A stretch of 32,598 nucleotides of DNA. It comes from a virus. Positions 2,110 through 32,598 of this stretch are shown here, in pieces (position 1 is the first letter of the stretch; the number at the start of each line of letters is the position of its first letter). The DNA lies in IMG/VR virus record IMGVR_UViG_3300037237_000074, positions 1 to 32,598 of that record. One strand, 5' to 3'. Under the pieces are notes generated by a model, which did no database searches, was not told the DNA's origin, and saw nothing but the letters and a program-made list of their open reading frames with translations. Position numbers and translations under genes: made by a program.

Positions 2110-2757
2110 GTGTCACCAGACATTACAGACGTGTCGCAAGACTCGTCACTAGATCCTGACCGGTGGATCCGGCGCGGAATCTACGCCGGGGTCGCGCTCG
2201 TCGCGGCGTTCGCATTCATCGTCAGCTACAGCCACATCTACGACCTTGGACGGCAGCACGCAGAGTTCGGCATCGCCGACCGGCTGCTGCCGCTGAGCGT
2301 TGACCTGCTCATCGTCGCGGCGACGCTCGTGCTGTGGCTGCAGAGCCGCAGCGGGGCGGAACTGACCGGGCTTGAGCAGAAGCTGCCACGCGGCACGCTG
2401 TGGGGCGGGATTGGCGCCACGGTCGCCGCGAACATCGCCTACGGCCTGCCTCACGGGTGGCTGGCGAGCGTCATCTCCGCATGGCCCGGCGCAGCTTTCG
2501 TCGCCGCTGTCGAACTCGCGATCGTCGCCGTCAAGGCTGGCCGGTTCGGCCTGCAGCCGGGCGCGTCGCCGCAGGCCAGGCCGGTGCCGTCCGATTCCGT
2601 CGGGGCTGCGAAAGCTGCATACGACGCGACAGTGCTGGCCGGCAATCCGCTGTCCCGAAACCAGCTCACCGAGCGGTTCGGCATCACCCGTGCGCAGGCC
2701 GACGAGATCCGCGAGCCCGCCGTCAGCGCATCCCTGAATGGAGGCCCGCCAGCATGA
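2110..2757 (+). CDS. DUF2637 polytopic membrane protein (Spd-like)
   Basis: 215 aa, GTG start at 2110 with AGGAG eight bases upstream. Four hydrophobic segments lie at about residues 24-41, 59-77, 96-112 and 121-140, the DUF2637 arrangement, including LPLSVDLLIVAATLVLWLQ. The C-terminal 60 residues are soluble and contain a helix-turn-helix-like stretch (LSRNQLTERFGITRAQADEI). DUF2637 proteins are found next to the TraB/FtsK-like translocase in AICEs and Streptomyces plasmids, and are thought to help transfer or intramycelial spread. The stop overlaps the translocase start (ATGA), indicating coupled expression. An upstream in-frame extension to 1906 is rejected for lack of a start signal. Confidence 0.8.
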   Translation: MSPDITDVSQDSSLDPDRWIRRGIYAGVALVAAFAFIVSYSHIYDLGRQHAEFGIADRLLPLSVDLLIVAATLVLWLQSRSGAELTGLEQKLPRGTLWGGIGATVAANIAYGLPHGWLASVISAWPGAAFVAAVELAIVAVKAGRFGLQPGASPQARPVPSDSVGAAKAAYDATVLAGNPLSRNQLTERFGITRAQADEIREPAVSASLNGGPPA

Positions 2758-4805
2758 CCACCGACCAGCGTGACCACGACGCCGAAGTGATCGAACTGCA
2801 CCCTCAGACCGAGGCGACGGAAGTTGTCGGCGAGCCCGTCGCCGACGCCGGCCCGCTCGTCCTTGAGGAGCCCGGGACGCGCCGCCAGATCATCCCTGAG
2901 AACTGGCGCCGGGACAGGATCCGGGCGACGGTCGAGCACCATGCAGGACTGCACTGGCACCGTGCGAAGTTCCACGGGGTCCGGGCGCCGATGTACGCGC
3001 TCAAGACGGTGTTCTATGCGTTCGCCGGCGTGATGGTGCTGACCGGGACGCTGATGCGGTGGTGGCACTGGACCGATGGGTGGGTGCTGGAATCGCAGGC
3101 TGTCGCGAAGGGCAACGCGGGGCACGGCGAGGCGATGGCCGCACACAAGCAGGGCATCAAGACGCGGGGCACGCGGGGCCGGATCGTGTTCGTGTGCGGC
3201 GTGCTGGCGCTGCTGCTGCTGATCGCGATGGTGGCGTTCCTGCCGGGCTGGGCTCAGCTGGCGGTCGCGACGGTCGTGTTCGGCGTCCTGGTCTACTACG
3301 GCAAGCCGGACGGCAAGTCGCTGGCTACTGCCGCGGTCGTGCCGCCTAAGTACATGGAGCCGACCCCGGAAGTGATCACGCGGGCTATGGCCAGCCTGCG
3401 GATTCAGGAGATCAACGCGCTGGTCAGGGACGGCGAGCGCCTGGCGTTCGTCACCGACGTTCACCGCGACGGGCCCGGGTGGGGTGTCGAGATCGACCTG
3501 CCTCACGGCGTGACCGCGAAGTCGATCGTCGCCAAGCGTTCCGAACTTGCGTCTGGCCTGCGGCGTCCGCTGTCGGCGACGTGGCCGAAGGGTGTCCCCG
3601 GTGAGCATGAGGGACGCCTCTCACTGTGGATCGGCTTCCAGGATCTCGCCAAGATGAAGGCGCCGGCGTGGCCGCTGCTCAAGGCCGGGCAGGCGGACGT
3701 GTTCGCCGGGCTGCCGTTCGGCACCGACCCGCGTGGCCAGCGGGTTGACGCCGGGCTGTTTGAGGTCAACTGGCTGGTCGGCGCCGCCCCAGGTCAGGGT
3801 AAGACAGCGGCGATCCGCGTGCTGGCCTGCGCCGCCGCGCTGGATCCGCTGGCCGAGATCTGGATTCACGAGCACGCCGGCAAGGGTGACCTTGAGCCGC
3901 TGGCGCAGGTCTGCCACCGCTACGTTTCCGGGCTCGATGACGAGTCGATCGCTTACGCGGCCGAGTCGCTGCGGATGCTGCGGAAGGAACTGGACCGCAG
4001 GTCGGTGCAGTTTAAGAAGATCCCCCGGGTGGACAAGCCAGACGGCAAGGTCACGCGGGACATGGCCGCGAAGCGCAGCCAGCACCTTTACCCGATCGTC
4101 GCGTTCTTTGACGAGGTGCAGAACGTGTTCATGCACCCGGAGTTCGGCGAGAACGCCAAGGCGGACGCGGCCTACATCCTGCGTGTCGGCCGGGCGTACG
4201 GCCTGATTCTGGTGCTGGGCACGCAGCGGCCGGCGGCCGACGCGGTGCCTACCTCGGTCAGCGGCATCGTCACCAACCGTTTCTGCCTCAAGGTGCCCGA
4301 CCAGCCGTCAAACGACCTGGTGCTCGGCACGAGTTCCTACCGGGCCGGATACGACGCGACGGTGTTCCGCGCCAAGACTGACGCCGGGATGGGGTGGCTC
4401 AAGGCCGAGGGTGACCCCCAGATCGTCAAGACGTACTACCTAGACCTGAACGCTACGGAGAAGGTCGCGAAGCGTGCCCGGGGCATCAGGGAGGCGGCCG
4501 GGACGCTGACCGGCTACGCGCTCGGCGAGGCTGGCGAGACGCCCGAGCGGAACTTCCTGCTCGACGTGCTCAACGTCTTCGGCGCCGACGACAAGCTCTG
4601 GTCCGAGACCGTCGCGGCGAGGCTGGCCGAGCGGATCCCGGAGGCGTACGACGCCGTTACCCGGGATTCCGTGGCCAGCCAGCTACGCAAGGCCGGGGTC
4701 GCGGTGAAGGACGTCCGCGAGACCGGCAAGGCGCAGCGGAAGGGCTGCGAGCGGGCCGACGTCGAGAGTGTCGCGGGTGTCGCGGCTACCGGGGGTCGGC
4801 TGTGA
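2754..4805 (+). CDS. TraB/FtsK-SpoIIIE-type DNA translocase
   Basis: 683 aa, ATG at 2754 with GGAGG 8-9 bases upstream. Three transmembrane segments lie at about 80-102, 144-163 and 166-183. The cytoplasmic RecA-like motor has Walker A GAAPGQGKT (343-351), Walker B PIVAFFDE (447-454) and the FtsK-type GTQRP motif (489-493). Residues about 600-662 form a winged-helix-like C-terminus. In Streptomyces plasmids a TraB of this layout forms a hexameric pore and moves double-stranded DNA between mycelia after its winged helix reads short repeats in clt. Host FtsK is less likely because of the short N-terminus and the neighbours. A dense repeat array starts inside the 3' end of this gene and continues downstream, the position of clt in known systems. 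Transfer function is inferred. Confidence 0.85.
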   Translation: MTTDQRDHDAEVIELHPQTEATEVVGEPVADAGPLVLEEPGTRRQIIPENWRRDRIRATVEHHAGLHWHRAKFHGVRAPMYALKTVFYAFAGVMVLTGTLMRWWHWTDGWVLESQAVAKGNAGHGEAMAAHKQGIKTRGTRGRIVFVCGVLALLLLIAMVAFLPGWAQLAVATVVFGVLVYYGKPDGKSLATAAVVPPKYMEPTPEVITRAMASLRIQEINALVRDGERLAFVTDVHRDGPGWGVEIDLPHGVTAKSIVAKRSELASGLRRPLSATWPKGVPGEHEGRLSLWIGFQDLAKMKAPAWPLLKAGQADVFAGLPFGTDPRGQRVDAGLFEVNWLVGAAPGQGKTAAIRVLACAAALDPLAEIWIHEHAGKGDLEPLAQVCHRYVSGLDDESIAYAAESLRMLRKELDRRSVQFKKIPRVDKPDGKVTRDMAAKRSQHLYPIVAFFDEVQNVFMHPEFGENAKADAAYILRVGRAYGLILVLGTQRPAADAVPTSVSGIVTNRFCLKVPDQPSNDLVLGTSSYRAGYDATVFRAKTDAGMGWLKAEGDPQIVKTYYLDLNATEKVAKRARGIREAAGTLTGYALGEAGETPERNFLLDVLNVFGADDKLWSETVAARLAERIPEAYDAVTRDSVASQLRKAGVAVKDVRETGKAQRKGCERADVESVAGVAATGGRL

Positions 4806-4971
4806 CGGGCTGCCTAGGAAGTGAATCCTGCCGGTCGCGTCGCGGTCAGCCGCGACAGCGCGACATCGCAGGTCAGAGCGTCGCGCTCGCTGGCCAGTGT
4901 CGCGGCGATTCGCATAAGCGCAGGTCAGCGAGTGTCGCGGAAGCGCGACAGATCTGCGGGCCAGCGCGACA
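4767..4971. repeat. TGTCGCG repeat cluster, candidate clt/TraB recognition locus
   Basis: The 7-mer TGTCGCG occurs exactly at 4769, 4778, 4898 and 4933, and its complement CGCGACA at 4851, 4859, 4944 and 4965: eight copies in 203 bp. AGTGTCGCGG is repeated exactly at 4767, 4896 and 4931. The first two form a tandem GTGTCGCGG pair. GCGCGACAGAT occurs at 4943 and 4964, and GCAGGTCAG twice. Degenerate copies (GTCGCG) lie at 4834, 4839 and 4880. Most of it lies in the 183-bp gap after the translocase gene. Clusters of 7-8-bp TraB recognition sequences are known at this relative position in Streptomyces plasmids. Confidence 0.8.
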
Positions 4972-4988: not shown

Positions 4989-5525
4989 GTGCCGCTGAAA
5001 CTCAAGATTCAGCCGCCGCTGATCAAGTGCGGCGACTGCGGCAAGTCCCATCGGGCGGGCACGCGGCATACCTGTGTCACGCGCCTGGATCGCAAGCCGC
5101 GGACGCCGCGCAAGACGACGCTCAGCGGGCCGCGGCTGCAGTTGTTCACCTGCGGCGACTGCGGCAAGGCTGCCGGGCCGGGTCACTCGTGCCGGACGCG
5201 AACCGACTTCAAGGGCCGGAAGCGCAAGCAGGAGAAGGCCGAGGCCGACCGGGCGAAGAAGGAAGCGGCCGAGCGGCGCAAGGCAGCGGCGGCGAAGAAA
5301 CGGAGCGAGGCGCATGACCCCGAAGACTGCGAAGACGAGGACTGCCAGCGGTACGGGTGCGTCATGTTCCGGCGCGGGTGGCAGAAAGGCTACGAGGCCG
5401 GGCAGGGCGCCGGGTTCATTGCTGGCCATGCGGCCGGGTACGAACTCGGTCACGGCGAGGGTCAGCAGGAAGGTCACGCGCAGGGTTACAGCGAGGGTGT
5501 CGCAGCCGGGTCCGCTGGCAAGTAG
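4989..5525 (+). CDS. Double zinc-knuckle protein with charged helix and Gly-rich tail
   Basis: 178 aa, GTG at 4989. Two similar knuckles are present: KCGDCGKSHRAGTRHTC (residues about 14-30) and TCGDCGKAAGPGHSC (about 54-68). A Lys/Glu/Ala-rich probable coiled coil follows (about 80-108), then an acidic CEDEDCQRYGC segment. The tail from about residue 130 is built on G-x3-G repeats (GYEAGQGAGFIAGHAAGYEL), which often pack as helices. It is the first gene after the TGTCGCG cluster. Small zinc proteins recur in AICE transfer operons as mobile element transfer proteins; the exact role is unknown. Confidence 0.6.
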   Translation: MPLKLKIQPPLIKCGDCGKSHRAGTRHTCVTRLDRKPRTPRKTTLSGPRLQLFTCGDCGKAAGPGHSCRTRTDFKGRKRKQEKAEADRAKKEAAERRKAAAAKKRSEAHDPEDCEDEDCQRYGCVMFRRGWQKGYEAGQGAGFIAGHAAGYELGHGEGQQEGHAQGYSEGVAAGSAGK

Positions 5526-7793: not shown

Positions 7794-8915
7794 TCACAGT
7801 TCCGTCCGGCTCGCGAAAACAGCCTCTAGAACAGCGTTCGTCTGCTCGTCCGTGTCGGGCCACAAGTGCCCGTAGACGTCGAGTGTCGTCTTGGCGCTGG
7901 CGTGCCTCATCCGGGCCTGGACCTTCTTCACGTCGGCCCCGGAAGCGATCAGCAGCGACGCGAGGTAGTGGCGCAGGTCGTGATACCGGAACCCGGCCGG
8001 CAGGCCGTCCACGGTCGCCCTGGCCTTGCGTATGGCCCGTTCGAGCCGCCACGGGCCGACCTGCCTGCCGTCGTCGTCCACCAGCACCCAGTCGCCGGAC
8101 CACTGCGCCGAGTGCGTGATCAGTTCCGTGATCAGCGAGGCGGGGATCGGGACAGCCGTCCGGCTCGTCTCCGACTTGAGCAGTTGCGCCGGGTACTGGA
8201 CGGCCGGGTTGAGCATCCCGGTCACCAGGTCCACGTCGCCGGGCCGCAGCCCGCACGCCTCGGCCAGCCTGAGCCCGCCCATCGCGCCGAGCAGGACCCC
8301 GATCTGCAGGTAGGGAGGCATCGCCCCGTACAGCTGCCAAATCTGCTCTGTAGTGGCGCAGTAGGCCCGCTGGGATCCGCGGCCGGGGGAAGTCTTGCGG
8401 GAACACGGCGACGAGCCACGGAGGCCGTCAGCCACGGCGTCGTTCATGATCTGGCACAACCTGCGGTAGCAGGCGAAGACGTAACTCGGCGCGTAGCCCT
8501 CAACGGTCATGCGGGCCGTCCAGCCCTTCACCTGTGACGGCTTGATCGACGCGACGGTCTTGCCGCCGAACTCTTTCTTGATCTGGGCGATGTGAACCTG
8601 TGCCTGGCGCACCGTGGATGGCCGGCGCGTGCCGTAGCCGGCCAGCCAGACGTCGCACCACTGGCCGACCGTGACCTTCGCTTTGCGCGGGTCCTGGTAG
8701 ACGCCCCGGGCTGCGTCGGTCTCCTGCGCGGCGCCGTACCGCTCGGCGTCGCCCTTCTTCGCGAACGCCTTCGTCGGCTGCTGGCCGCCCGGCATGTTCC
8801 AGACGGCGAGCCAGCGCTTCGCGTCCTTATCGCCGCCCCGGTCAGGATGGCGGGCTGTCTTGCGCTTGGGCCCACGGGTGCCGGACGTGTGCCACAAGTC
8901 CTTGACGTGGCTCAC
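7794..8915 (-). CDS. int: Tyrosine recombinase integrase
   Basis: 373 aa, GTG at 8915 overlapping the stop of the upstream XRE gene (GTGA). The N-terminus has a basic beta segment of the arm-binding type (RWLAVWNMPGGQQPTKAFAK). A SAM-like core-binding domain covers about residues 75-160 (TVGQWCDVWLAGYG onward). The catalytic domain has Arg216 (GGLRLAEACGLR), His312 and Arg315 (HDLR), His338 (MRHAS) and nucleophile Tyr348 (DVYGH), so all key residues are present. It should carry out site-specific integration at attP, likely at 7631-7742. A small upstream frame extension is rejected. It is co-transcribed with the regulator and ends at a strong terminator. Confidence 0.95.
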   Translation of the reverse strand: MSHVKDLWHTSGTRGPKRKTARHPDRGGDKDAKRWLAVWNMPGGQQPTKAFAKKGDAERYGAAQETDAARGVYQDPRKAKVTVGQWCDVWLAGYGTRRPSTVRQAQVHIAQIKKEFGGKTVASIKPSQVKGWTARMTVEGYAPSYVFACYRRLCQIMNDAVADGLRGSSPCSRKTSPGRGSQRAYCATTEQIWQLYGAMPPYLQIGVLLGAMGGLRLAEACGLRPGDVDLVTGMLNPAVQYPAQLLKSETSRTAVPIPASLITELITHSAQWSGDWVLVDDDGRQVGPWRLERAIRKARATVDGLPAGFRYHDLRHYLASLLIASGADVKKVQARMRHASAKTTLDVYGHLWPDTDEQTNAVLEAVFASRTEL

Positions 8916-9478
8916 CCGAACACCTTCTCCGTGTTGATCGCCGCCGTCATGGACTGCTCGAGCATGGTCCGCAACTGCCACGGCGTGACGCCTGCCGTCA
9001 GCGCCCGGTAGATCAGCGACCGCATCTCGCCGGCGAACTCAAGGCCCGGCCCGTCTAGCGACAACTGGAAACGGTGCGGCCGGTTCTCCATGACGAACTC
9101 GGCCGTGTCGTGACCCGTGCCGGGGGCGAGTGGTTGCTCGCCCGTCGCCCACGCCCACATCCGGCCGAGTGACTCCTTCATGTCCGGCGTCAGCGGCTCG
9201 GTATGGCTGAGCGACGTCATCGGGGTCATGGGCCCGGGGAGCAGCAGCAGGTTCGGGGAGACGTCGAGCACGGCAGCGACGGCGACGAGCTCGTCAGCGT
9301 TCAGCGGGCGCTCGCCGGACTCGACGCGGATCAGGCCCGTGTCCAGGATCGGCTGACCCATGCCCGCTAGCTGGCGGGACAGTTCGCGCAGGCTCAGCCC
9401 GCGCCTCTGGCGGATTCGTTTCATGTTGGCCGCGACCCGTTTCGTCGTCGGGCCGACCACCTTCTTCGTAGCTGGCAT
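8912..9478 (-). CDS. XRE-family HTH regulator, probable immunity repressor
   Basis: 188 aa from ATG at 9478. Residues about 14-80 are an XRE helix-turn-helix (RVAANMKRIRQRRGLSLREL, then an insertion, GLIRVESGERPLNADELVAV and LDVSPNLLLLP). The C-terminal about 100 residues are soluble and have no peptidase signature. No Shine-Dalgarno precedes the ATG, so translation may be leaderless. It is divergent from the excisionase and in one operon with the integrase, the layout of a lysogeny switch. The repressor role is inferred. The motif TGTCGCACACA in its own promoter, also found in similar form at 6960 and 11758, is a candidate binding site. Confidence 0.85.
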   Translation of the reverse strand: MPATKKVVGPTTKRVAANMKRIRQRRGLSLRELSRQLAGMGQPILDTGLIRVESGERPLNADELVAVAAVLDVSPNLLLLPGPMTPMTSLSHTEPLTPDMKESLGRMWAWATGEQPLAPGTGHDTAEFVMENRPHRFQLSLDGPGLEFAGEMRSLIYRALTAGVTPWQLRTMLEQSMTAAINTEKVFG

Positions 9479-9593
9479 AACCGCAGTGTCGCACACAAGG
9501 CGACTGCGGACTATCGCTTGACGCTGCGTAACCCATCTGGTAAACCTGCTGCTGCACATCCAAAACAGCAGGCGCACATGTAACGTAGGAAAC
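9479..9593. promoter_or_regulatory. Lysogeny switch intergenic region
   Basis: This divergent region contains TGTCGCACACA (9487-9497, part of the imperfect dyad GTGTCGCACAC), a possible rightward promoter TTGACG (9518-9523) with TAAACC (9541-9546) at 17-bp spacing, and the inverted repeat CCTGCTG (9545-9551)/CAGCAGG (9566-9572). The last overlaps the proposed -10, fitting an operator controlling excisionase and early genes. Confidence 0.6.
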
Positions 9594-9620
9594 ATGCGCC
9601 ACGTTCGGGGAGGCAGCATC

Positions 9621-9827
9621 TTGCCAGTCAAGGAACGCGACGAACTCATGACCACCGAGGAAGTCTCCGCAGCGCTCAAGGTGCCCGTGCGCACGCTGCA
9701 CGACTGGCGCCTCAAGGGGAAGGGCCCCAAGGGCGCCAAGATCGGCCGCGGGCTGCGCTACTGGCGCAGCGAGGTAGACGCATGGGTCGCCGGCCAGTTC
9801 GCCGCCGAGCAGACGGGCCAGAACTGA
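9621..9827 (+). CDS. xis: Excisionase-like HTH protein
   Basis: 68 aa if started at TTG 9621, which has GGGGAGG eight bases upstream. ATG at 9594 (spacing too short) and ATG at 9648 (typical MTTEEV start, distant site) are alternatives. MTTEEVSAALKVPVRTLHDW, then GKGPKGAKIGRGLRYWRSEVDAWV, is the HTH_17/MerR-like excisionase fold with its basic wing. Such proteins bend attachment-site DNA and direct the integrase to excision. Its place divergent from the regulator-integrase operon fits this. A purely regulatory role cannot be excluded. Confidence 0.8.
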   Translation: MPVKERDELMTTEEVSAALKVPVRTLHDWRLKGKGPKGAKIGRGLRYWRSEVDAWVAGQFAAEQTGQN

Positions 9828-14830: not shown

Positions 14831-17800
14831 CTATAGCGCCGCGTAGGCGATCGCGGTGAGGCTGACGGCCTCCCCGGCGTTGTGTGCCTTCTGCACCCCG
14901 TTGACCGAGCGGGTCACGGTGAACGTCTGCGGGCTGCTCGTGCCGTCGATCTCCGTGACGGTCATGTCCTCGCCCGCGATGGTGATGCCGAACGGGAACG
15001 CATAGCCGTAGTCAGCCAGGTCGATCCACACGGCGTTCGGGCTGGGAGTGTCCACGGCGAACGACGTGTCGCCCGTGCCGATGCCCGAGTGCAACTGGCT
15101 GCCGTCCGTGTTGGCCCTGGCCAGCGTTCCCGTGCCGTCGTCGGCGAGCGCGATCTCATACGGCACTTCCGGCACGCAGGTCGCCGCGATGACCCACTGG
15201 TAGGCGTTCAGCGTCTCCGTGTAGCCGTAGATCAGCTGGTCGATGTTGCCCGGGGGAAGCGGCGCCGACGCGGTGTCGATCACCTGCAGGTGATCCCCGA
15301 TATCGGCCGCCACCGTGTCGGCGAAGTCCGGCAGGATCTCCTGCCGGGCCATGTCCAGGTTGATCTGCGGATACCGCAGCTCGTCCACCGTGCCGATGTA
15401 GGCCGTCCACGACGCGAGGTCCGGAAGCTGGCTGTCGTCGTAGACGTTCGGCGACTGGGAAAAGGTGTACGGGCCCACCCCGTCGGGCGGATCGGAGACC
15501 GACAGCGGGCCCGTGGTCACCTGGAACTCGCTCGAGGATCCGTTCGGCCGGGACATCGTGACGTCGTTGCGCAATAGCTGGTCGTCGTCGGTGGGCTGCA
15601 GCGGGAACGCCAGCTCGGCGATGCCGTAGTCAAGCTGCACGGCCGGGTCCTGGACGTACAGCGAGTAGCGGGAACGGTAGGCCACCCCGAACGAGTCCCG
15701 CGTCTCAAACAGCAGGCCCCGGTCAGCGTCTTCGCAGTCCTGCAGGAGCTGGGTCACCTTGACCGGCAGTTGCGGGCCGACCAGCGCCGTCGAGTCGGTA
15801 TAGCCCGCAGCGTCGGTGAACACGTAGGGGATGCCCTGCTCAGTGCAGACCCGCACGAACCGCGCAGCGGCAGTCTCACCCGCGTACGCGGCCAGCGGGC
15901 CCGCCAGTGCGGTGATCGTGTCGTAGCCGCTCTCCTGCAGCGTCAGGTGCGCCCACGACGTAGACATCAGGGTGCCGGCCGGGTTCATCACCGCGTCGAA
16001 CGGCTCGCCGAGACTGGCCGACGTGAGCGTGCCCGTGGACGTCGCCGCCGCCGTGGATTCGCCGGCGATGATGCCGGTCAGCTTGTACGCCACATTGCTG
16101 CCCGACGTGGTGAGCTCGGCACTGACGAGCAGGTAGACGCCGTCAGCGCCGAACGTCACCTCGCCCGTCGTGAACAGCTGCGCCCCGGCGCCCGTGAACC
16201 CGGACAGGGTCAGGCTCCCGCCGTTCGCCGTGTTGTAGATCACGTCCGCGTAGTCGATCGTGCCCGTCGTATACATCCGGGCCACGACACTGCCGTCCAC
16301 GTCGCCGCCGCTGGGGATGTGCAGGACGAAGCGCATCACGTTCGCCGTCACGCCCGCCGCTGGCGCCCCGCCCGCCGCCCAGGAGACGCTGATCAGGCCC
16401 TTAGCGCCCGCCGCGTTGCCTCCGAGCGAGTCATAACCGCCGCCGCCGCCGCCCGGCAGCGACGTCGGCGAGGCGTTGAACGACGACCCGGCCAGCGTCC
16501 CGCCGCCAGGACCCCCGCCAGTGACAGCCGCGCCGCCCGCCTCGGTCGCCCCGGCGTTACCCGCGGAAGCCGACCCGCCAGACGACCCGCCACCGCCGCC
16601 GACAGCAGCAGCAGGCGCCGCCGTGGACGTGTACCAGTAGCACTGCACCTCACCGCGGGCACCGCTGCCACCACTGCCGCCCGTCGAGGATGCGTTTGTG
16701 TACCCGCCGCCGCCACCACCACCGGGCGCGCTGCCGCTCTTGCCGGTACGGGAACCCGACGTCGAGATGCCGCCATTGCCGCCAGAGCCGCCAGCCGGGA
16801 CACTGCCAGACCCGCCACCGCCGCCAGCGCCAGCTCCGCCGCTGGGACCGCCCTGCCCGCTCCCGCCGCCGCCGCCGATGCTGGCCCCGCCGCCACCGCC
16901 GCCGCCCTTGTTCCCGCCGCCACCGAACCCGCCGCTGCCGCCGTCGTATGTTCCGGTCTCGCCACCCAGGCCACCCGCAGCGCCGGGCGTGCCACCGCTG
17001 CCGCCCGACGTGGAGAACGAGCCGTTGAACTTTGACGGGCCGGGGCCGATACCGCCGTCGCCTATACCGCCACCAGCGCCGCCAGTGCCGACCGTGACCG
17101 AGTAGTTGTTACCTGCCGACACGCCCGGGTTAGCGCTCGTGAAAGCGCCCCCGCCGCCTGCGCCGCCGCCGTCGCTGGCGCCACCCCCGGCGCCGCCAGC
17201 ACCCGGACCCCAGAGGTAGACGGTCAGCGACCCGGGGACATAGTTCGACGGGCACGACCAGGTGCCCGACGACGTGAACGTCTGACTGGACTGCGACTCG
17301 CTGCCCGACCCCCCAGGACCGCCTGAGCCCGCCGCTCCCGCCCCGCCGGCATAGTGAGTCGTGGCGCTGCTGCCGGTGCCCCCAGTGCCGCCTGTAGTCC
17401 CGTCAGAACTGCCCGAGCCGCCGCCGTGCGCCACGACCGTCGTGGACGAGTCCCCGTGCATCGTGGTGGTGCCGCCAGCGCTGCCCACCGTGTAGCTGTA
17501 GGCGTTCCCCGGCGTCACGGCCAGCGACCCGGACGCGTACTCGCCGCCACCGCCACCAGCGCCGCCCGTGTTCCCGTTGTAACCCGAGCCGGTCCCGCCA
17601 CCGCCCCAGCACTGCGTCAGGATCGCGTTCACGCCCGCAGGCGCAGTCCACGACCCCGACGACGTGAAGACAGCCGTGTTGGCCACGGGCAGCGCCCCGG
17701 CTACGCCCGTCGCCCCGGTGAACACTGCCCCGTTCATCGCCGGGAACGGTGCCGCAGACGCCAGGCCGCTGTCGCTCGCCAGCGTCGGCGCCCCGGTAAA

Positions 17801-19297
17801 CGTCATCGGGAAGCCGCCAGGCAGGCCAGAGGCGAGCGACGTCGCCAGCGACCCATCTTCGGCGGGCCACCACGCCAGAGGCGCCGTGTCGAGCGTCGCG
17901 TAGTAGCGGAACAGCGCCGAGCGGAGCGCCGCGTTCTGGTTCAGCCGCCGCAGGATCCCGTTCGCCGTGATCGACACGTAGATGTCGTTGCCGGTCTGGT
18001 CCCACGACGGAGGCCACTCGGCGATCTCGCCCCAGAAGCGGTAGGTGAGGTCCGGGGTGAACGCATCCGACTGCGCCGACACCCGGAACTGCGTGTTTCT
18101 GCCGATCAGCCCGTAGTACGGCGACAGCGGGTTACGCGGCGAGAACTGGCCGCCCCGGTTGTTCAGCTGGAACGTGCAGGTCGCCGGGTTCGACGTGCCC
18201 GCGCTCGACTCGTCCGGCCTGCCGCGGACGATCGTGATGGTGGCCCGCTGGTACACGTAGTCGGTGATGTCGGTCCAGGTGCCGCCGACGTTGAGCTCGA
18301 ACAGCAGGTTGAGGACGGACTGCGGGAACGGGAACGCTTGGTAGACCGTCCCGGACAACGCCAGCGGAGACAGCGCGAGGCCGCCGGTCGCCGAGTAGGT
18401 TTCGGTGTCCGTCGCCGACATGTGCAGCGGCGACAGCGCCAGCGAACCCGTGCCGATGTTGCCGACCTTGCCCGTGCCGGACATCGCCAGTGGCGGCAGC
18501 GCCACGCTGCCGCTGGACGGGATGACGCCGTTGTTCCCGGTGCCGGACATCGCCAGTGGCGGCAGCGCCAGCGACCCGGAGGTGGTGACCGGGTTCGCGA
18601 CCGCCACGGTCCCGGACATCTTCAGCGGCGACAACGCCATGCTGCCCGTAGACGTGGTGTTGCTGGTAGCCGGGAGGAAGGTTGCTACCACCGCCGCGAT
18701 GCCACCGGAAGTTCCAGTGCCCGAGTAGGTAGCCGTGCCTGTAGACGTCGTGATCTGGTACCCGGAAGTGGCGCCGTAATTGCTTGGCGGTGATACGGCG
18801 CTGAAGTTCGTCCAGGGAGACGACGGGCCCGTACACGTAACGGTGGCAGTGCCCGAGTTGTCGAACGCCATCCCTACCCAGAACTCAGCGGCCTGAGCTG
18901 TGGTGGAAGTCGTACCCGAACTGAAGGTGGTACCGACGCTGGTTGTAGCGCTTCCGCTGCTCACGTCCAGCGGTGACGAGGTGGCGAGACCCGAGACTTC
19001 GTAGGCGAAGATGATTCCCTGAGCGATCGTGCCGGTGATGCCAATTGCTGTTTGGCCACCAGCACAGTTGGGGTCAGCCCAGACGGCTACATGGCCGGCA
19101 TCGCTCCCAGTGTTGGCCCCTGTAGCCACTTGCGCGAAGTTGCCCGCCGACCCCCCGAGGGTGACGCCGGTTGGGGCAGTCGTGCCGCCGTAGTTCCCGA
19201 CGAGCACGATGAGGCAGTTGCCCGCCGTGGTTGAACTGCTGAGCGTGAGCGCAGTGTTGCTGGTTACGGTCTTGTGCTGGACCAGGGTGATGCTCAC
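14831..19297 (-). CDS. Large glycine-rich minor tail/receptor-binding protein
   Basis: 1488 aa, GTG at 19297 with GGGGG upstream. Order: beta-rich N-terminal domain (1 to about 215); five units of about 21-23 aa like SGSLALPPLAMSGTG (about 215-330); the conserved actinophage minor-tail block with GTWTDITDYVYQR, RGRPDES and NNRGGQFSPRNPLSPYYG (about 340-420); an extreme Gly-rich stretch (about 550-975) with WTAPAGVNAI and FTSSGTWSCP repeats; and a C-terminal block with ARFVRVCTEQGIPYVF. It should form the tail tip and contact the host envelope. The long N-terminal extension before the conserved block is unusual. The opposite strand has long open frames here; these are compositional shadows. 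Confidence 0.8.
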   Translation of the reverse strand: MSITLVQHKTVTSNTALTLSSSTTAGNCLIVLVGNYGGTTAPTGVTLGGSAGNFAQVATGANTGSDAGHVAVWADPNCAGGQTAIGITGTIAQGIIFAYEVSGLATSSPLDVSSGSATTSVGTTFSSGTTSTTAQAAEFWVGMAFDNSGTATVTCTGPSSPWTNFSAVSPPSNYGATSGYQITTSTGTATYSGTGTSGGIAAVVATFLPATSNTTSTGSMALSPLKMSGTVAVANPVTTSGSLALPPLAMSGTGNNGVIPSSGSVALPPLAMSGTGKVGNIGTGSLALSPLHMSATDTETYSATGGLALSPLALSGTVYQAFPFPQSVLNLLFELNVGGTWTDITDYVYQRATITIVRGRPDESSAGTSNPATCTFQLNNRGGQFSPRNPLSPYYGLIGRNTQFRVSAQSDAFTPDLTYRFWGEIAEWPPSWDQTGNDIYVSITANGILRRLNQNAALRSALFRYYATLDTAPLAWWPAEDGSLATSLASGLPGGFPMTFTGAPTLASDSGLASAAPFPAMNGAVFTGATGVAGALPVANTAVFTSSGSWTAPAGVNAILTQCWGGGGTGSGYNGNTGGAGGGGGEYASGSLAVTPGNAYSYTVGSAGGTTTMHGDSSTTVVAHGGGSGSSDGTTGGTGGTGSSATTHYAGGAGAAGSGGPGGSGSESQSSQTFTSSGTWSCPSNYVPGSLTVYLWGPGAGGAGGGASDGGGAGGGGAFTSANPGVSAGNNYSVTVGTGGAGGGIGDGGIGPGPSKFNGSFSTSGGSGGTPGAAGGLGGETGTYDGGSGGFGGGGNKGGGGGGGASIGGGGGSGQGGPSGGAGAGGGGGSGSVPAGGSGGNGGISTSGSRTGKSGSAPGGGGGGGYTNASSTGGSGGSGARGEVQCYWYTSTAAPAAAVGGGGGSSGGSASAGNAGATEAGGAAVTGGGPGGGTLAGSSFNASPTSLPGGGGGGYDSLGGNAAGAKGLISVSWAAGGAPAAGVTANVMRFVLHIPSGGDVDGSVVARMYTTGTIDYADVIYNTANGGSLTLSGFTGAGAQLFTTGEVTFGADGVYLLVSAELTTSGSNVAYKLTGIIAGESTAAATSTGTLTSASLGEPFDAVMNPAGTLMSTSWAHLTLQESGYDTITALAGPLAAYAGETAAARFVRVCTEQGIPYVFTDAAGYTDSTALVGPQLPVKVTQLLQDCEDADRGLLFETRDSFGVAYRSRYSLYVQDPAVQLDYGIAELAFPLQPTDDDQLLRNDVTMSRPNGSSSEFQVTTGPLSVSDPPDGVGPYTFSQSPNVYDDSQLPDLASWTAYIGTVDELRYPQINLDMARQEILPDFADTVAADIGDHLQVIDTASAPLPPGNIDQLIYGYTETLNAYQWVIAATCVPEVPYEIALADDGTGTLARANTDGSQLHSGIGTGDTSFAVDTPSPNAVWIDLADYGYAFPFGITIAGEDMTVTEIDGTSSPQTFTVTRSVNGVQKAHNAGEAVSLTAIAYAAL

Positions 19298-19317
19298 CAG
19301 AACCCCCTACGGGCAGG

Positions 19318-19354
19318 CGTCACCACGGCAGGACTAGCTCCTGCCGTGGTGACG
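19318..19354 (-). terminator. Perfect 16-bp hairpin inside tail operon
   Basis: CGTCACCACGGCAGGA (19318-19333), loop CTAGC, and its exact complement (19339-19354). It separates the 141-aa tail protein gene from the 1488-aa tail gene on the minus strand. No T-run follows. It could partly terminate transcription to lower fibre synthesis, or protect the upstream mRNA end. Confidence 0.75.
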
Positions 19355-19374
19355 GTTCCGGTGGTCATCGCTGG

Positions 19375-19800
19375 CTAGGCTTCGGACTGCGTGATCGTGA
19401 ACGCAGAGCAGGACACGGTCGCACCCGAGGTGATCGACAGCGAGTTCAGGTTCAGGTCCGCACCCGAGGTCCCCACGCTGCCCATCGCCGCCACAGTCGT
19501 CCCGTTGGACAGCAGCAACGCGAAATACCCAGCCGTCCCGGTGTTCCCCGCAGTGCCGGACGTGATCGAGTTCGCGGTCGCGGTGACCACTCTCGAGCCG
19601 GTCGAACCGGACGCCGACGACGCACCGAACGCCGTGCTGCCCAACGTCAACGTGGCCAGCAGCGTCCCGGCCAGCGCCTGGTTCGCATCACCAGGCTGCG
19701 ACCCGGTGTAGATGACCATTTTCCCGCTGTTCAGCAGCGCAGTGACAGCATTGACGCCTGCCTCTACTTCCGCATCCGAGAAAAACGGGTTGTTAGCCAC
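19375..19800 (-). CDS. Small structural tail protein
   Basis: 141 aa, GTG at 19800 with GGAG nine bases upstream; a TTG at 19815 is less likely. It begins MANNPFFSDAEVEAGVNAVT, then MVIYTGSQPGDANQALAGTL and LLATLTLGSTAFGAS. The pattern of a Y-x-G-x-Q-P-x-x-A-x-x-A-L segment followed by L-L-A-T-L occurs in many phage minor structural proteins, which supports a virion role. The remainder is Ser/Thr/Gly-rich beta structure. It precedes the strong hairpin at 19318. Confidence 0.65.
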   Translation of the reverse strand: MANNPFFSDAEVEAGVNAVTALLNSGKMVIYTGSQPGDANQALAGTLLATLTLGSTAFGASSASGSTGSRVVTATANSITSGTAGNTGTAGYFALLLSNGTTVAAMGSVGTSGADLNLNSLSITSGATVSCSAFTITQSEA

Positions 19801-19930
19801 GGTTCCCCGCTCCAATCTGCGGCAGCGACAGGCCGCCGCCGCACGTGATCACCTGCGGTGCGTCGCTGCCCGTGCCCGAATCGTCGCTGGCCGTGACCGG
19901 CTCAGTGCGCGGCTCGTCCTGGTCGTCCAT
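19793..19930 (-). CDS. 45-residue acidic protein between tape measure and tail genes
   Basis: ATG at 19930 with GGAGGG six bases upstream encodes 45 aa: MDDQDEPRTEPVTASDDSGT followed by a C-terminal VITCGGGLSLPQIGAGNRG. The stop overlaps the start of the next gene by 8 bp, so it would place ribosomes for it. The product is acidic and probably disordered. Function unknown; it may serve mainly as a translational coupling peptide. Confidence 0.5.
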   Translation of the reverse strand: MDDQDEPRTEPVTASDDSGTGSDAPQVITCGGGLSLPQIGAGNRG

Positions 19931-19942
19931 GTCATCCCTCCG

Positions 19943-22900
19943 TTAGCGCCCGAAGGCCGTCTGCACGCTGCCGCCGCCCTTGGTCCTGACCCACTTGCGG
20001 ATAGCGGTCACCATGAACTGCTCGAACTCGCTCGCCCCGGCCGACGAAACCTCGAGCTGCACCGGGCCACCCCCGGCCGCAGCGCCGACCGGCTCAGGGC
20101 GGCCCGTGCCGTTGTAGGCCAGGGACACGCCCGTCGGCAGCCATCCGCCCCGGTCATAGGACCCGATCGACAGTTCCGACTGCCACGCACCGATCGGGCC
20201 GCCGTACTTCTGCTGCATGTAGTTGGCCATCCAGGTGATCTGCGCGCCCGGCTGGCCGCTGTTCGCGTTCCGGTCACCCGCGAGCGAGAGGCCCCACCCG
20301 CCGTATTCGTTGCCGAGCGACCCGCCGCCACCGGACACGCCGTGACCGAGCGCCTGAGCGATGCCGAGCGCGCCGGACCCCGCGTTCTGAATGGTGCTGC
20401 TCCAGCCCGACTCGCGCATGGCGACGTTGTTCCAGTCGGTCCAGTTCTGGCCAGACGCCCACTTCGGGTACATCTTCTTGGCCAGCGCCGCGTTCGCGGA
20501 TGGAGCGCCGCCGCCAGGTGTGCCGCCACTGCCGCCCGAGCTGGCCCCAGCACCCATGATCTGCTTCCAGGTGCCCTTCACCATGTCCGCGATCATCTTC
20601 GCGGGCAGCGTCGCGATCACAGACGCCCAGTGCCCGCCAGCGCCGCCGTTGCCGCCCGGCATGATGCTCGACAGCGCGTTACTGAACGCCACCTCGTTGC
20701 CCGTCGCCGCGGCGAGCGTCATCTTCGCCACCGCGCCCGCGTCGCCGACGATCCCCCCGGCAGCGAAGCCAGGCACGCCCATCGCCCCGAGCAGCGGCGC
20801 GTACTTCTGCGTCCGCTGCTTGTCCACGACCGCTTCGCCGTCCTCAAGCAGCGCCAGGTTCCGGTCGCCGCCACCGAAGCCAGCCAGCCGGCCACCCGTC
20901 GAGAGCGAGATAGGCGACACGCTCGGCAGGTCCAGCGAGCCGAGGCCCAGCGCGCCCATCACGTCGTCCCAGAGGCGCCGGATGCCGCCCATGTAGACGT
21001 CATTGATCACGAAGTTGATCGGGCTGCCCATGATCTTTTCAAGCGCGCCCCAGCCCGACTTCGCCTCGCCCTGGATGTGGCCCCACACGGTGCCCATCGC
21101 CGAGCGCAGGTCGCCGAGTTTGCCCGTTACCCAGTTGTAAGCGTTCTTTACCGGGTTAATGATGTCGTTGTAGACCAGGCCCCAGGCCGCCGTGGCGTCG
21201 GACTTGACCGTGCCCCAGATGCCCTTGATGGCGCCCTGCAGGTCGCCGACCTTGGACTTCACGTCGTTGTAAGCGTTCTTTATCGGCGTGAAGATGTCGT
21301 TATAGGTCGCGTTCCATGCGGCTACGGCATCAGACTTGATCGTGTCCCAGATGCTTTTAATGGCCGACTGCAGATCGCCAATCTTGCTTTTAACGTCGTT
21401 ATAGGCGTTCTTTATCGGCGTGAGAATGTCGTTATAGACGACCTTCCATGCGTCCTCGGTCAGCGACTTGATCTCGCCCCACACGTCGCTGACCGCGGAC
21501 TTCATGTCGTCCCAGACCTTGCCCGCGGTGCTCTTGAGGTCGTCCCAGATACCGGACAGCGCCGACTTGATCGCGTTCCAGATCTGCACGCCCACGGCCT
21601 TGACCGCGTTCCAGGCGCCCTTCCAGTTGCCCGTCATCAGGTCGAGCAGGACCTTAAAGTCAGCAGAGATAACGTCCCAGGCGATCTTCAGCGCCGCTTT
21701 GATGACGTCCCAGACGGCCTTCGCGACGCCCTCCATGACGTCGAACTCGGCCTTCCAGATGTCGCCGATCACCTTAAGCGCGGTCTGCAGCGGCGACGGC
21801 AGGTCGTGGAACAGGCCCGTGACGAACTTCACCGCGTCGTCGGTCCAGTTCTTGATGTCCGTCCAGATCTGCTGCCAGTGGGTGCCGAGGAAGCCGACAG
21901 CGGCGATGATCGCGATGATCAGCGCCGGGATCGGGTTCATCGCGATAGCGATAGCGGCCAGGATCGGGATGAGCAGGTGATTCTGCGACAGCCACTCGAT
22001 CGTCTTGGCGATCAGGCCGGCCAGCATCGCGATCAGCGGCGTCGCGATCTTGAGGATGGTGAGCAGGCCGGACGACAGTGCGTCGATGAGGATGGTTGAC
22101 AGCTGGCCGACTGCCTGGATCAGTACCGGGAACGCCGGGGCCAGGCCCTTGATCAGCCCGTTGATCAGCGCCGCGATCGGCTTAGCGAGGCTCTCAAGCG
22201 CGTCGCCGAGGATCGCGAACACGCCCGTGTTCTCAAGCGTGTTGAACACGGACGAGAGAGTTTTGCCGAGGATCGCGAAGCTGGGAGCCAGGCCCTTGAG
22301 CAGCTGGCCCACCGACCCGAGCACGCCCGCCAGGTCGCCGAGCACCGCGCCTGCCAGGTCGGCGAGCACCTTGCCGACCGGGATCAGGACCGGCAGCACG
22401 CCGTCGATGGCCTTGCCGAACGACGCGACCGCCGGCGCTAGTGCCGTGGCGAACATCTCGCCGAGCTTCCCCAGGATGGGGAAGATCGTGTTCACCAGGT
22501 CCAGGATGGCTTTCAGCACCGTGGCGGACGGTCCCTCCGCCGCGGCGAAGTCGTGGAACATCGAGCCGAGCGACTTGCCCAGGTCGCCGAACGCCCCGGC
22601 GAGCGTGGCGAATACCGGCTTGGCGCCCTTGATCATGGACAGGAATCCGGGCAGCGCCCCGCTGACCAGCGCCTCGAATCCCTTGAGGAGCGGCTGAATC
22701 AGCGGCGCGACGCCGGCGAACACGGCCTTGAACTCAGGCTCTAGTCCCTTGAGGTAGCCGCCGATCTGCGACATGGCCTGTTCCATCGGCTTCGCCAGCG
22801 GCTCGACGGCCGACTTGAAGATGCCCTGGATCTTGGTCATCGTGGACTGCACGTCGGTCGCGAAGCCCTTGTTTGTCTTTTCAAGGATCATGAACCCGGC

Positions 22901-23953
22901 GCCGAGCACGCCGAGACTGGACCCGACAGACACGATCGCGGGTATCACCGCGAGCAGCGCCCCGCCGATTCCCACGATGCTGGCCTGCATCCCGGACAGC
23001 CCGGCGATGCCCGGCATCGCGCCCCCGGCGAGGTTCCCGCCCGCCGAGGCCGCACTGCCGCCCGCCGAGGCGGCAGCGCCGGCCAGGCCGCCGCCCTTAC
23101 CGCCGCCGCCGAACGACGGCAGCCTGAACTTTGACAGCACACTCTTGAGTGCCGACGTGAACCCGCCGCCGTAGCTGGTACCGGCCGCCTGGCCGTCCTT
23201 CTGCGCTGCGCCGCTGCTGCTGCTGCTGAACAGGCCGCCGAGCAGCGACGACACTTTGCTGCCGGACAGGTTCGCGGCGAACCCCGACATGAAGCCCTTG
23301 CCGGCGTCCTTACCGGACTGCTCGCCCGCCGCGACGTCCGGCCCGGACCCGGCGCCGCCGAACAGCCCGCCGAGTATCGAGCCGATCTGGCTGGACACGC
23401 CTGAGAAGCCCTGACGCAGCCCGGACGAGAACCCCTTGGCCGTGTCCTCACCCGAGGCCTTGGCGTCGCTCACGGTGCGTTCTGACGCCCCGGAGTTGCC
23501 GAACAGGCCGGCCATGACCCCGGACAGCTGGCCGCCGACCGACGCGAACCCGTTGTTCAGGCCCTTGGCGAAGCCCTGCGCGATGTTGTTGCCCTGCTTC
23601 GCGGCGTCCTGGGTGACCGTGTTCCCCGCCGAGCCGAACAGCTTGTTCCCGCCCGACGTGCCGAACAGGCCCGACAGCAGCCCGGAACCTAGCGACGTCT
23701 GAAACTTCTGCAGCATCCCGCGGGCCAGGCCGGTGCCGACCTGCTGCCCGGCCCGGTTCGCGTCGCTGGCCGTCGAGCCGCCGCCCTTGCCGGACAGCTC
23801 GCCGAGCAGCCCGCCGCCCGTCGCCTTGTTGAAGTTCCCGCTGAACCCCTTGCCTGCGTCCGTCCCGGCTGCCTCGAACGAGTTCTTTATCCCCTTGAGC
23901 GCCTTCGTCGCCTCGTCGTTCGTGCGGATCGTGATCTCGACCAGGTTCGTCAT
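19943..23953 (-). CDS. Tape measure protein with lytic transglycosylase domain
   Basis: 1336 aa, ATG at 23953 with GGAGGG upstream. The first 300 residues hold diverged repeats with GxxxAxGFxxGLxxGF and GLFG motifs. Hydrophobic stretches (ASIVGIGGALLAVIPAIVSV; IPILAAIAIAMNPIPALIIA) follow, then long helical regions and three 44-residue repeats. Residues about 1145-1290 are a soluble lytic transglycosylase-like domain with catalytic-type Glu1181 (VAMRESGW) and GALGIAQ. It spans the tail lumen, sets tail length (very roughly 0.15 nm per residue, so about 200 nm) and may open peptidoglycan during injection. It sits directly after the tail chaperones, as usual in siphophages. Confidence 0.93.
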   Translation of the reverse strand: MTNLVEITIRTNDEATKALKGIKNSFEAAGTDAGKGFSGNFNKATGGGLLGELSGKGGGSTASDANRAGQQVGTGLARGMLQKFQTSLGSGLLSGLFGTSGGNKLFGSAGNTVTQDAAKQGNNIAQGFAKGLNNGFASVGGQLSGVMAGLFGNSGASERTVSDAKASGEDTAKGFSSGLRQGFSGVSSQIGSILGGLFGGAGSGPDVAAGEQSGKDAGKGFMSGFAANLSGSKVSSLLGGLFSSSSSGAAQKDGQAAGTSYGGGFTSALKSVLSKFRLPSFGGGGKGGGLAGAAASAGGSAASAGGNLAGGAMPGIAGLSGMQASIVGIGGALLAVIPAIVSVGSSLGVLGAGFMILEKTNKGFATDVQSTMTKIQGIFKSAVEPLAKPMEQAMSQIGGYLKGLEPEFKAVFAGVAPLIQPLLKGFEALVSGALPGFLSMIKGAKPVFATLAGAFGDLGKSLGSMFHDFAAAEGPSATVLKAILDLVNTIFPILGKLGEMFATALAPAVASFGKAIDGVLPVLIPVGKVLADLAGAVLGDLAGVLGSVGQLLKGLAPSFAILGKTLSSVFNTLENTGVFAILGDALESLAKPIAALINGLIKGLAPAFPVLIQAVGQLSTILIDALSSGLLTILKIATPLIAMLAGLIAKTIEWLSQNHLLIPILAAIAIAMNPIPALIIAIIAAVGFLGTHWQQIWTDIKNWTDDAVKFVTGLFHDLPSPLQTALKVIGDIWKAEFDVMEGVAKAVWDVIKAALKIAWDVISADFKVLLDLMTGNWKGAWNAVKAVGVQIWNAIKSALSGIWDDLKSTAGKVWDDMKSAVSDVWGEIKSLTEDAWKVVYNDILTPIKNAYNDVKSKIGDLQSAIKSIWDTIKSDAVAAWNATYNDIFTPIKNAYNDVKSKVGDLQGAIKGIWGTVKSDATAAWGLVYNDIINPVKNAYNWVTGKLGDLRSAMGTVWGHIQGEAKSGWGALEKIMGSPINFVINDVYMGGIRRLWDDVMGALGLGSLDLPSVSPISLSTGGRLAGFGGGDRNLALLEDGEAVVDKQRTQKYAPLLGAMGVPGFAAGGIVGDAGAVAKMTLAAATGNEVAFSNALSSIMPGGNGGAGGHWASVIATLPAKMIADMVKGTWKQIMGAGASSGGSGGTPGGGAPSANAALAKKMYPKWASGQNWTDWNNVAMRESGWSSTIQNAGSGALGIAQALGHGVSGGGGSLGNEYGGWGLSLAGDRNANSGQPGAQITWMANYMQQKYGGPIGAWQSELSIGSYDRGGWLPTGVSLAYNGTGRPEPVGAAAGGGPVQLEVSSAGASEFEQFMVTAIRKWVRTKGGGSVQTAFGR
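21041..21436 (-). repeat. Three 132-bp (44-aa) tandem repeats in the tape measure gene
   Basis: Units run 21436-21305, 21304-21173 and 21172-21041. Each starts YNDI followed by xxPxKNAYN and contains GDLxxAxxxxW. The units differ at many synonymous sites. Tape measure proteins commonly vary tail length by gain or loss of such units. The frames TAYNDVK and ATYND use TAT/TTT-ending codons more often than the surrounding gene. Confidence 0.8.
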
Positions 23954-23959
23954 CCCGGA

Positions 23960-24256
23960 TTACCCTCCCTCCTGCGGTCTCGGCCTGCCCAGTGCTTCCA
24001 CGCGCAGCAGCCGGATGATGCTCGCGTCCTCCGCCAGCGCTTGCGACGGTGTGCAGTGGAAGCGGTCGCATATGTCCAGCAGCGTCAGCGCCTCGATTAG
24101 CTCGCTAGGGGCTCCGATGCGTTCCCCATCTGCAGCGATGCATCCGGCGAAGTCTCGGTAGAGGCTGAGTTCGCCGGCGATTGATTTGGGACCGTGGACA
24201 TCGCCCCGACCCACGCCTGGAAGATCTGCAGGATGACGGGCAGTTCCTCCTCGCAC
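23960..24256 (-). CDS. Tail assembly chaperone, frameshift (T) portion
   Basis: An open frame in the -1 register relative to the upstream chaperone, overlapping it by 160 bp. It has no convincing start of its own. Translation is expected through the CCCAAAT slip at 24184-24190, joining the upstream protein to SIAGELSLYRDFAGCIAADG and on to LRVEALGRPRPQEGG, 74 residues after the slip. The fusion would be about 184 aa (194 from the GTG start). In siphophages this G-T fusion binds the tape measure while the tail assembles. The gene ends 6 bp before the tape measure ATG. Confidence 0.85.
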   Translation of the reverse strand: MRGGTARHPADLPGVGRGDVHGPKSIAGELSLYRDFAGCIAADGERIGAPSELIEALTLLDICDRFHCTPSQALAEDASIIRLLRVEALGRPRPQEGG

Positions 24257-24543
24257 AGCCCGTCAAAGTCCGGGGTGATCGGCTTCCCTTCGGCGTCTTC
24301 CCGGTTCCACGAGACGACCGACTCGGACACCTTGCGGATCAGCGCCTCGGACGTGGCCAGGTCGCTGTCGGCCGTGGCCTGCATCCGCTGGACAGCGAAG
24401 AAGTCCTTCAGCGGCAGCGAGCGGATCCGCACCTCAAGGTCGTTGAGGTCGGGAAACTTCAGGTCGTACTCGGTCGCTTCCCTGCGCGATCCCATGTCGT
24501 ACCCCTTCGTCATTCGTTCCAGGCGCCGGGCTGCCCGGCTCAC
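24097..24543 (-). CDS. Tail assembly chaperone (G)
   Basis: 148 aa from GTG 24543 (GTGA overlap), or 138 aa from ATG 24513 (MTKGYDMGSRREATEYDLKF), which has GGAA just upstream and is the more likely start. It is soluble and helical (LKDFFAVQRMQATADSDLAT, then EELPVILQIFQAWVGAM). Position between tail tube and tape measure and the -1 frameshift identify it as the lambda gpG-type chaperone. The 0-frame tail after the slip site is Ser/Thr-rich (NQSPANSASTETSPDAS). Confidence 0.88.
   Translation of the reverse strand: MSRAARRLERMTKGYDMGSRREATEYDLKFPDLNDLEVRIRSLPLKDFFAVQRMQATADSDLATSEALIRKVSESVVSWNREDAEGKPITPDFDGLCEEELPVILQIFQAWVGAMSTVPNQSPANSASTETSPDASLQMGNASEPLAS
24184..24190 (-). other. -1 ribosomal slippery site CCCAAAT
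   Basis: Read on the minus strand the codons are GTC CCA AAT, so the heptamer C-CCA-AAT fits X-XXY-YYZ exactly and permits a slip to CCC AAA. The next frame is then open for 74 codons to 23960. Its position in the overlap of the two chaperone frames is the conserved place for this signal in long-tailed phages. Confidence 0.88.
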
Positions 24544-25228: not shown

Positions 25229-25234
25229 TGGTGA

Positions 25235-29579: not shown

Positions 29580-29582
29580 GGG

Positions 29583-29960: not shown

Positions 29961-30046
29961 CCGTTGACTCGCTTTCTGTCCTAGCCCGCATGGTGATGGG
30001 CCGGTATGCCTGGCTTATGTGGTGCTATTCGGTTGTTGACCTGCGG

Positions 30047-30256: not shown

Positions 30257-30259
30257 CGG

Positions 30260-30637: not shown

Positions 30638-30646
30638 ATGGCTCCC

Positions 30647-31159: not shown

Positions 31160-31160
31160 G

Positions 31161-31652: not shown

Positions 31653-31667
31653 GTCAGAAACCTCCTG

Positions 31668-32159: not shown

Positions 32160-32204
32160 TTGAGGCTTCCTCTCCCCCCGGGGGCGTTACTGCCCGGGAT
32201 ACGT

Positions 32205-32228
32205 GCCCCCGGCCATGCGGCCGGGGGC
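32205..32228 (-). terminator. GC hairpin after capsid gene
   Basis: A perfect 10-bp stem GCCCCCGGCC (32205-32214) with GGCCGGGGGC (32219-32228) and a 4-nt loop ATGC, 11 bp after the capsid stop on the minus strand. No T-run is present. It likely limits read-through so that capsid is made in excess over downstream proteins, as in many phages. Confidence 0.7.
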
Positions 32229-32239
32229 GGGGCGATCAG

Positions 32240-32598
32240 CTAGGACCGGGTGGCCAGCTGGACGAACGCGGACAGGGTGTTCGCGCTGTTGTTGTGCGGG
32301 GTCAGCGCGGACTGCAGCCACGGCCGGCCGTCCACGCGCTCGATGATGCGGTAGGCGGTCTGGTCGTTCTGGAACGCGAACTGGTCCGACGCGGCCACTT
32401 CCACCGACTGCCGGTCACCGATCAGGTAGTAGGAAAGATCGACAAAGTTGATGTCTCCGGTGGTGCCGAGCGCCGGCACCTTCTCCGTGAAGATCACCGG
32501 GCGGCCGAGGATCGTCATGGGCGGGGTGTCGGTGCCGCTGGTGTTGCCGTATCCGCCGATCCAGATCGGGCCACCGCCAGTGCCCACAGACAGCGCCA
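32240..32598 (-). CDS. HK97-type major capsid protein, C-terminal part
   Basis: At least 119 codons; the 5' end lies beyond the right edge. It contains GRPVIFTEKVPALGTTGDIN, FVDLSYYLIGDRQSVEV, SDQFAFQNDQTAYRIIERVD and a C-terminal QLATRS. This G-x-P-V ... G-D-x-x-x-x-D-x-S-x-Y ... F-x-x-x-Q-x-x-x-R-x-x-x-R-x-D-G pattern is the C-terminal A-domain region of HK97-fold capsid proteins. It would be preceded by portal and protease or scaffold genes outside the window. Confidence 0.85.
   Translation of the reverse strand, partial: ALSVGTGGGPIWIGGYGNTSGTDTPPMTILGRPVIFTEKVPALGTTGDINFVDLSYYLIGDRQSVEVAASDQFAFQNDQTAYRIIERVDGRPWLQSALTPHNNSANTLSAFVQLATRS

Follow-up and report, generated by a model that had tools for sequence, protein, structure and literature searches.

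A cluster of TGTCGCG repeats directly 3' of a TraB-like translocase gene is a candidate clt locus of a temperate tailed actinophage

The window, i.e., the whole stretch of DNA analysed here, comprises 32,598 bp and is an IMG/VR virus record. It carries a gene for a TraB-like DNA translocase, a cluster of short repeats at the 3' end of this gene, and further downstream genes of a tailed phage. The features are as follows.

2110..2757, + strand: DUF2637 membrane-type protein, an SpdB-like neighbour of traB (Pfam PF10935, E 2.9e-9)
2754..4805, + strand: TraB-like DNA translocase, 683 aa (tblastn, AlphaFold2, PDB fold matches)
4769..4971, no strand assigned: candidate clt, eight exact TGTCGCG units (putative TRS) and three one-mismatch units; arrays lie likewise 3' of traB in relatives
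4769..4784, + strand: units 1 and 2, within the 3' end of traB
4769, 4778, 4898 and 4933, + strand: exact TGTCGCG
4851, 4859, 4944 and 4965, - strand: exact TGTCGCG
4867..4875, - strand: TGACCTGCG, copy 1, an element enriched in the clt DNA of relatives
4919..4927, - strand: TGACCTGCG, copy 2, 52 bp from copy 1
4989..5525, + strand: first gene after the candidate clt, for a small protein with CxxC-type motifs
7794..8981, - strand: tyrosine integrase (PF00589, E 1.4e-15)
8912-9739: HTH repressor-like gene
14831..19297, - strand: large phage protein, probably tail spike or phosphodiesterase-like (phrog_5313, E 3.9e-158; phrog_24476)
19943..23953, - strand: tape-measure protein with a lysis-like C-terminus (phrog_4197, E 2.9e-39)
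32240..32596, - strand: C-terminal part of an HK97-type capsid gene, truncated at the end of the record (PF05065, E 6.8e-17)

The TraB-like protein (P0001) is an FtsK/SpoIIIE RecA-type motor with a Walker A (GAAPGQGKT) and a Walker B motif (FFDEVQN), both conserved in the alignment of its relatives; the gene is intact. The closest named relatives are actinobacterial plasmid FtsK/TraB proteins, which match about 90% of the protein at 38-40% identity (tblastn). A search of the protein against Pfam gave no family match. The best PDB folds are FtsK motors (FtsK at E 1.4e-13) and the conjugation protein TcpA. In the AlphaFold2 model (mean pLDDT 86.7) long hydrophobic helices of the membrane type lie within residues 56-183; the RecA motor is followed by helices and strands at about 601-674 in winged-helix order. 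As modelled, the protein combines N-terminal membrane helices with a C-terminal winged helix. In several relatives, too, a DUF2637 gene adjoins traB or lies in its vicinity. The product of 4989..5525 has no match in Pfam, and a stretch related to this gene follows the clt in L019, L021, L099 and L101-L103. The TraBs of L100 (106-2493), L101 (9818-12181) and L102 (9800-12244) possess an additional C-terminal FtsK_gamma domain (PF09397, E down to 2.8e-21), possibly a second DNA reader.

The sequence-only reading of this DNA had counted eight copies of TGTCGCG, four per orientation, in 203 bp, and three copies of AGTGTCGCGG. Both counts are exact: the units occupy 4769-4971, and AGTGTCGCGG starts at 4767, 4896 and 4931. 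Three one-mismatch copies are located at 4833, 4838 and 4879. Units 1 and 2 are part of traB; the other six reside in the gap between the end of traB (4805) and the next gene (4989). It had further been proposed to compare the density with shuffled sequence. Here the local and the global picture differ. In 1000 dinucleotide shuffles the maximal number of TGTCGCG per 203 bp was at most 3 in 99.8% and never above 5, and the 205-bp region shuffled by itself contained 0-3 copies; the local clustering of eight is thus upheld. In the whole record of 32,598 bp TGTCGCG occurs 15 times against 15.6 expected, therefore a global enrichment does not exist. The clt DNA has no DNA-level match in plasmids, a search of Rfam gave no match, and a tRNA search found none. 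A cluster of ATCGCGAT at 21909-22048 was rejected as a candidate; it consists of degenerate in-gene repeats inside the tape-measure gene. In this gene, degenerate repeats of ATCGCGAT and GTCGTTATAG extend over 21280-22050, and many spacings are multiples of 3 (21, 33, 63, 99, 132 bp).

About 100 TraB relatives were collected from plasmids, GTDB genomes and virus contigs; a first genome scan with a single protein as query had returned nothing. At each locus the most clustered 7-mer directly 3' of traB was sought without recourse to known motifs, and the units were then refined by EM. Most of the relatives have a clustered 7-8-mer directly 3' of traB, nearly always in both orientations. The segment 3' of traB ranked first among all segments in 33 of 101 loci and within the top 3% in 70 of 101. 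A combined empirical test places this clustering far from chance, the loci being related and hence not independent. As a positive control, the motif-blind scan recovered GACCCGGA directly 3' of traB of pSVH1, which we take to be the letters of its known 8-bp TRS. No clear 7-mer cluster 3' of traB was seen at L053, L083, L084 and L110. Clustered repeats of 7-9 bp directly beside traB, by which a clt with its TRS is recognised, are present in the window.

The units differ between loci: GGTAGCG at L005, TGTTGCG at L022, L100 and L102, TGTTCCG at L019, and CTAGCGG, CTAGAGG, GCTAGCG and others elsewhere. Two further loci, L021 and L101, have TGTCGCG as well: in an AICE-like element the adjacent TraB is 58% identical, in the other case 50%. 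The unit had seemed new; evidently, it is not private to the element in the window. The mixed orientation, which had been interpreted as a possible sign of hexamer assembly on both strands, is real. Yet among 80 loci with a clear unit, 75 have it in both orientations, and so does pSVH1. Mixed orientation is the rule and therefore no sign of a special two-strand assembly.

Does the unit change together with the protein domain which supposedly reads it? In a partial Mantel test with 58 representatives the motif correlates with the winged helix given the motor core (r=0.16, permutation p=0.011); for motif and core given the winged helix p is 0.074. The sequence-only reading had suggested a comparison of repeats among relatives with diverged recognition helices; in the present comparison the unit drifts with the winged helix. 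A whole-protein scan for alignment columns that track the TRS was discarded; clade structure dominates and the top columns are in the motor.

A sharper relation was noticed among the AICE loci L023-L098, where the TraB wing residue ahead of a conserved Gly (NRRG versus NRIG/NLKG) tracks the base after CTAG. In AICE-type TraBs the two classes go with this one base in 38/38 versus 20/20 cases. Specifically, the base is C with the wing triplets ARR, NRR and TRR (43/43), and A with NRI or NLK (20/20) or, in a wider set, with NRI, NLK, NRA, NRN and NRQ (23/23); with NRT (n=7) and NRK (n=1) it is C. On a tree built from the motor region only, seven independent pairs agree, none disagrees and two show no difference (p=0.016); without NRT the ratio is 8:0 (p=0.008), bearing in mind that the rule was spotted by inspection, was tested on the same data set and holds within the AICE-type clade. 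The residue aligns with residue 663 of the window protein, in the second wing strand of the AlphaFold2 model. K663 of the window does not follow the rule in a simple manner. Seen on the model, the rule points to the second wing strand as the seat of a specificity residue, in addition to helix alpha3, which is named in the literature (PMC3583192). In the small sample of the window's own clade, the window and L021 have a VKDV...RKG wing and TGTCGCG in common, L005 and L111 have GGTAGCGG in common, and L020 and L099 both combine VKNV with a unit which, read by eye, is of the GTTA type. Taken together, these comparisons lend indirect support, which is strong in the AICE-type clade, to TRS units that would be specific for the cognate TraB winged helix.

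The clts of the relatives also carry a conserved element, TGACCTGCG(N)AAAC, often as TGACCTGCGNAAAC. Two of the three copies of the TGACCTGCG core in the record are in the window clt. In 27.9 kb of DNA 3' of traB, GACCTGCGNAAAC was counted 19 times, versus 11 times in 1868 kb elsewhere; the reversed word is absent (0). The element is positioned at +146 in pSVH1, there as TGACCTGCGNAAAC, and at about +100 in many AICEs, and it occurs once or twice in phage clts. The full 15-mer is present at most 6 times per host genome of 8-13 Mb; outside clts it is mostly seen in what looks like intergenic DNA at a distance from traB. TGACCTGCGNAAAC as a clt-only signal was rejected, since intergenic copies not adjoining traB exist in hosts and phages as well. 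CTGACCTGCGNAAAC is seen in clts, among them that of the window (4867-4875, 4919-4927), between genes of actinobacterial chromosomes and in many GC-rich virus contigs; besides the window, the loci concerned are L112-L140 and L141-L220. CTGACCTGCGGAAAC was not found in the literature searched.

What is the carrier of this locus? HK97 capsid, tail cassette, integrase and a repressor-like HTH gene identify a temperate tailed phage (Caudoviricetes). The region 14831-32596 is a tailed-phage structural cassette. Portal, terminase and the N-terminus of the capsid are not within the record, the end of which cuts the capsid gene, and the record has no overlapping ends. An AICE is defined by integrase, rep and tra genes and by the lack of virion genes. 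The window is no AICE by this definition: capsid and tail genes are present. A rep gene was not recognised in the window.

The linkage of TraB with virion genes is not confined to the window. The record G001 (33,333 bp; loci L005/L017/L018) contains portal, ClpP-like protease, capsid, tape measure, integrase, TraB and an intact array of seven GGTAGCG units, with structural genes colinear to those of the window. The two ends of G001 share 459 bp at 98.9%, so that it is probably circular or terminally redundant. pPaSha2 of Pseudonocardia alni (L013, CP052773) is a closed circle of 41.9 kb with terminase, portal, protease, capsid and TraB. This plasmid resembles a phage-plasmid that carries TraB, with the portal match divided between two frames. 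Among 14 other virus records with a related TraB plus pPaSha2, portal was found in 9 and capsid in 9 above the curated cut-off, and at least one of both in 10, although neighbouring prophages could be part of the larger of these records. The combination of TraB and virion genes is thus seen in no fewer than ten further virus records or plasmids, of which one has overlapping ends and another is a closed plasmid.

The sequence-only reading had regarded the repeats as a candidate clt; it had overlooked the phage nature of the carrier and the second conserved element of the clt. The position-conserved clusters 3' of traB in relatives, including the clt of pSVH1, and the covariation of repeat and winged helix strengthen this proposal. 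Judged from sequence comparisons, the repeats at 4769-4971 are very probably the clt of the element, and TGTCGCG is the predicted TRS, which the TraB-like translocase encoded next to it would recognise by its C-terminal winged helix. Other interpretations must be weighed. The repeats might be operators of a repressor for the traB/spd operon or for the downstream genes and not be read by TraB at all. The array is indeed at the start of the downstream gene run, and the phage possesses the repressor-like HTH gene at 8912-9739. Yet operators would have to account for 8-11 units spread over 203 bp, for the retention of such an array 3' of traB in plasmids, AICEs and phages alike, for a unit that changes with the TraB winged helix, and for the clt of pSVH1 at the corresponding place. 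We consider operators quite improbable. Replication-origin iterons or a centromere-like array of a plasmid state are a shade more improbable still. Such sites are arrays of short repeats as well and the related pPaSha2 is a plasmid; however, neither a rep nor a par gene was recognised next to the array of the window, and at L021 it is traB that adjoins the TGTCGCG array, while an HTH gene (possibly rep) and the integrase are 3-6 kb off.

A different objection accepts the clt as genuine by descent and holds that TraB and clt are inactive cargo, either a relic or an AICE next to a prophage. Prophages and AICEs can adjoin, and the missing end overlap of the window record would fit. This is unlikely, though somewhat less so than the two readings above: G001 unites virion genes, integrase, TraB and an intact array within 33 kb and has overlapping ends, pPaSha2 is a closed circle with both modules, and the window TraB is intact with conserved motor motifs.

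Returning to the interpretation as a clt, the following mechanism can be envisaged. By binding to the clustered TGTCGCG units, TraB monomers would nucleate the motor hexamer on the double-stranded DNA. With its membrane helices as an anchor and with the help of the DUF2637 protein, the hexamer would then pump the element's dsDNA into an adjacent cell or hyphal compartment. Because the carrier is a temperate tailed actinophage, it probably has a route of transfer or spread in the lysogenic or plasmid state which is independent of virions. The TraB/clt module seems to pass between AICEs and phages, since the unit of L021 is also TGTCGCG. L021 (5234-8077) is a compact AICE-like element of the Streptosporangiales with a TGTCGCG array and possible cross-recognition with the phage TraB; an integrase is present, and no virion gene was recognised.

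We tentatively propose, at slightly less than even confidence, a more general view. A clade of temperate actinophages with a complete TraB/clt module would pass on its dsDNA genome from cell to cell, or within the mycelium, independently of virions. The TRS is common to phage and AICE-like elements, so that phage TraB and AICE clt could cross-mobilise. The clt would be bipartite, i.e., drifting TraB-specific units combined with the conserved TGACCTGCG(N)AAAC for another factor.

As far as the literature searched shows, the TGTCGCG unit and the second conserved element appear to be new, as do the TraB/clt module in a tailed-phage clade, the clts predicted for many AICE TraBs and the rule for the wing residue. 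A conjugation module of plasmids and AICEs together with its cis site inside tailed phages blurs the distinction between phage and conjugative element in mycelial bacteria. The comparative data provide predicted clt units for dozens of AICE-type TraBs. The specificity rule, according to which a wing residue sets one base of the TRS, is testable; with it, cross-mobilisation between elements would become predictable.

How does the locus compare with known systems? clt loci beside traB are known from pSVH1, pIJ101, pJV1 and pWTY27 (PMC3583192). The TRS of pSVH1 is an 8-bp repeat (PMC4170104, PMC3583192) and is read by the TraB winged helix (Vogelmann 2011, cited in these two papers). Like the window, pSVH1 from Streptomyces venezuelae has an FtsK-like TraB and a TRS cluster just 3' of traB in both orientations. 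Unlike the window, it is a small conjugative plasmid without virion genes, its unit is GACCCGGA, and its TraB is 31% identical over the matched part. The clt of pWTY27 has 7-bp units, TGACACC, in 175 bp and overlaps the 3' end of traA by 16 bp; TraA binds to it as demonstrated by EMSA and footprinting (PMC3583192). The window shares the 7-bp units and the overlap with the 3' end of the transfer gene, whereas pWTY27 is a theta plasmid with another unit in four direct copies. Actinobacterial AICEs (e.g., L021, L023, L034) have the TraB superclade and 3' TRS arrays in common with the window, in L021 even the unit TGTCGCG, but are integrated elements. For pSAM2, the AICE archetype, no clt motif is described (PMC9513070).

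Among phages, SpaA1, Gilgamesh and SIOphi have FtsK-like translocases, thus an FtsK/SpoIIIE-type motor in a phage as in the window; their similarity to the window TraB is weak and covers only part of the motor domain. INPHARED contained no phage with a close TraB relative; matches at E up to 10 were short stretches of the motor domain. A precedent, likened by description, is pZL12, a phage replicon with conjugal transfer genes: a conjugative Streptomyces plasmid-phage (Zhong 2010, as cited in PMC7157519 and PMC3583192) the transfer of which, according to a passage in PMC3583192, requires a major tra gene and two adjacent genes.
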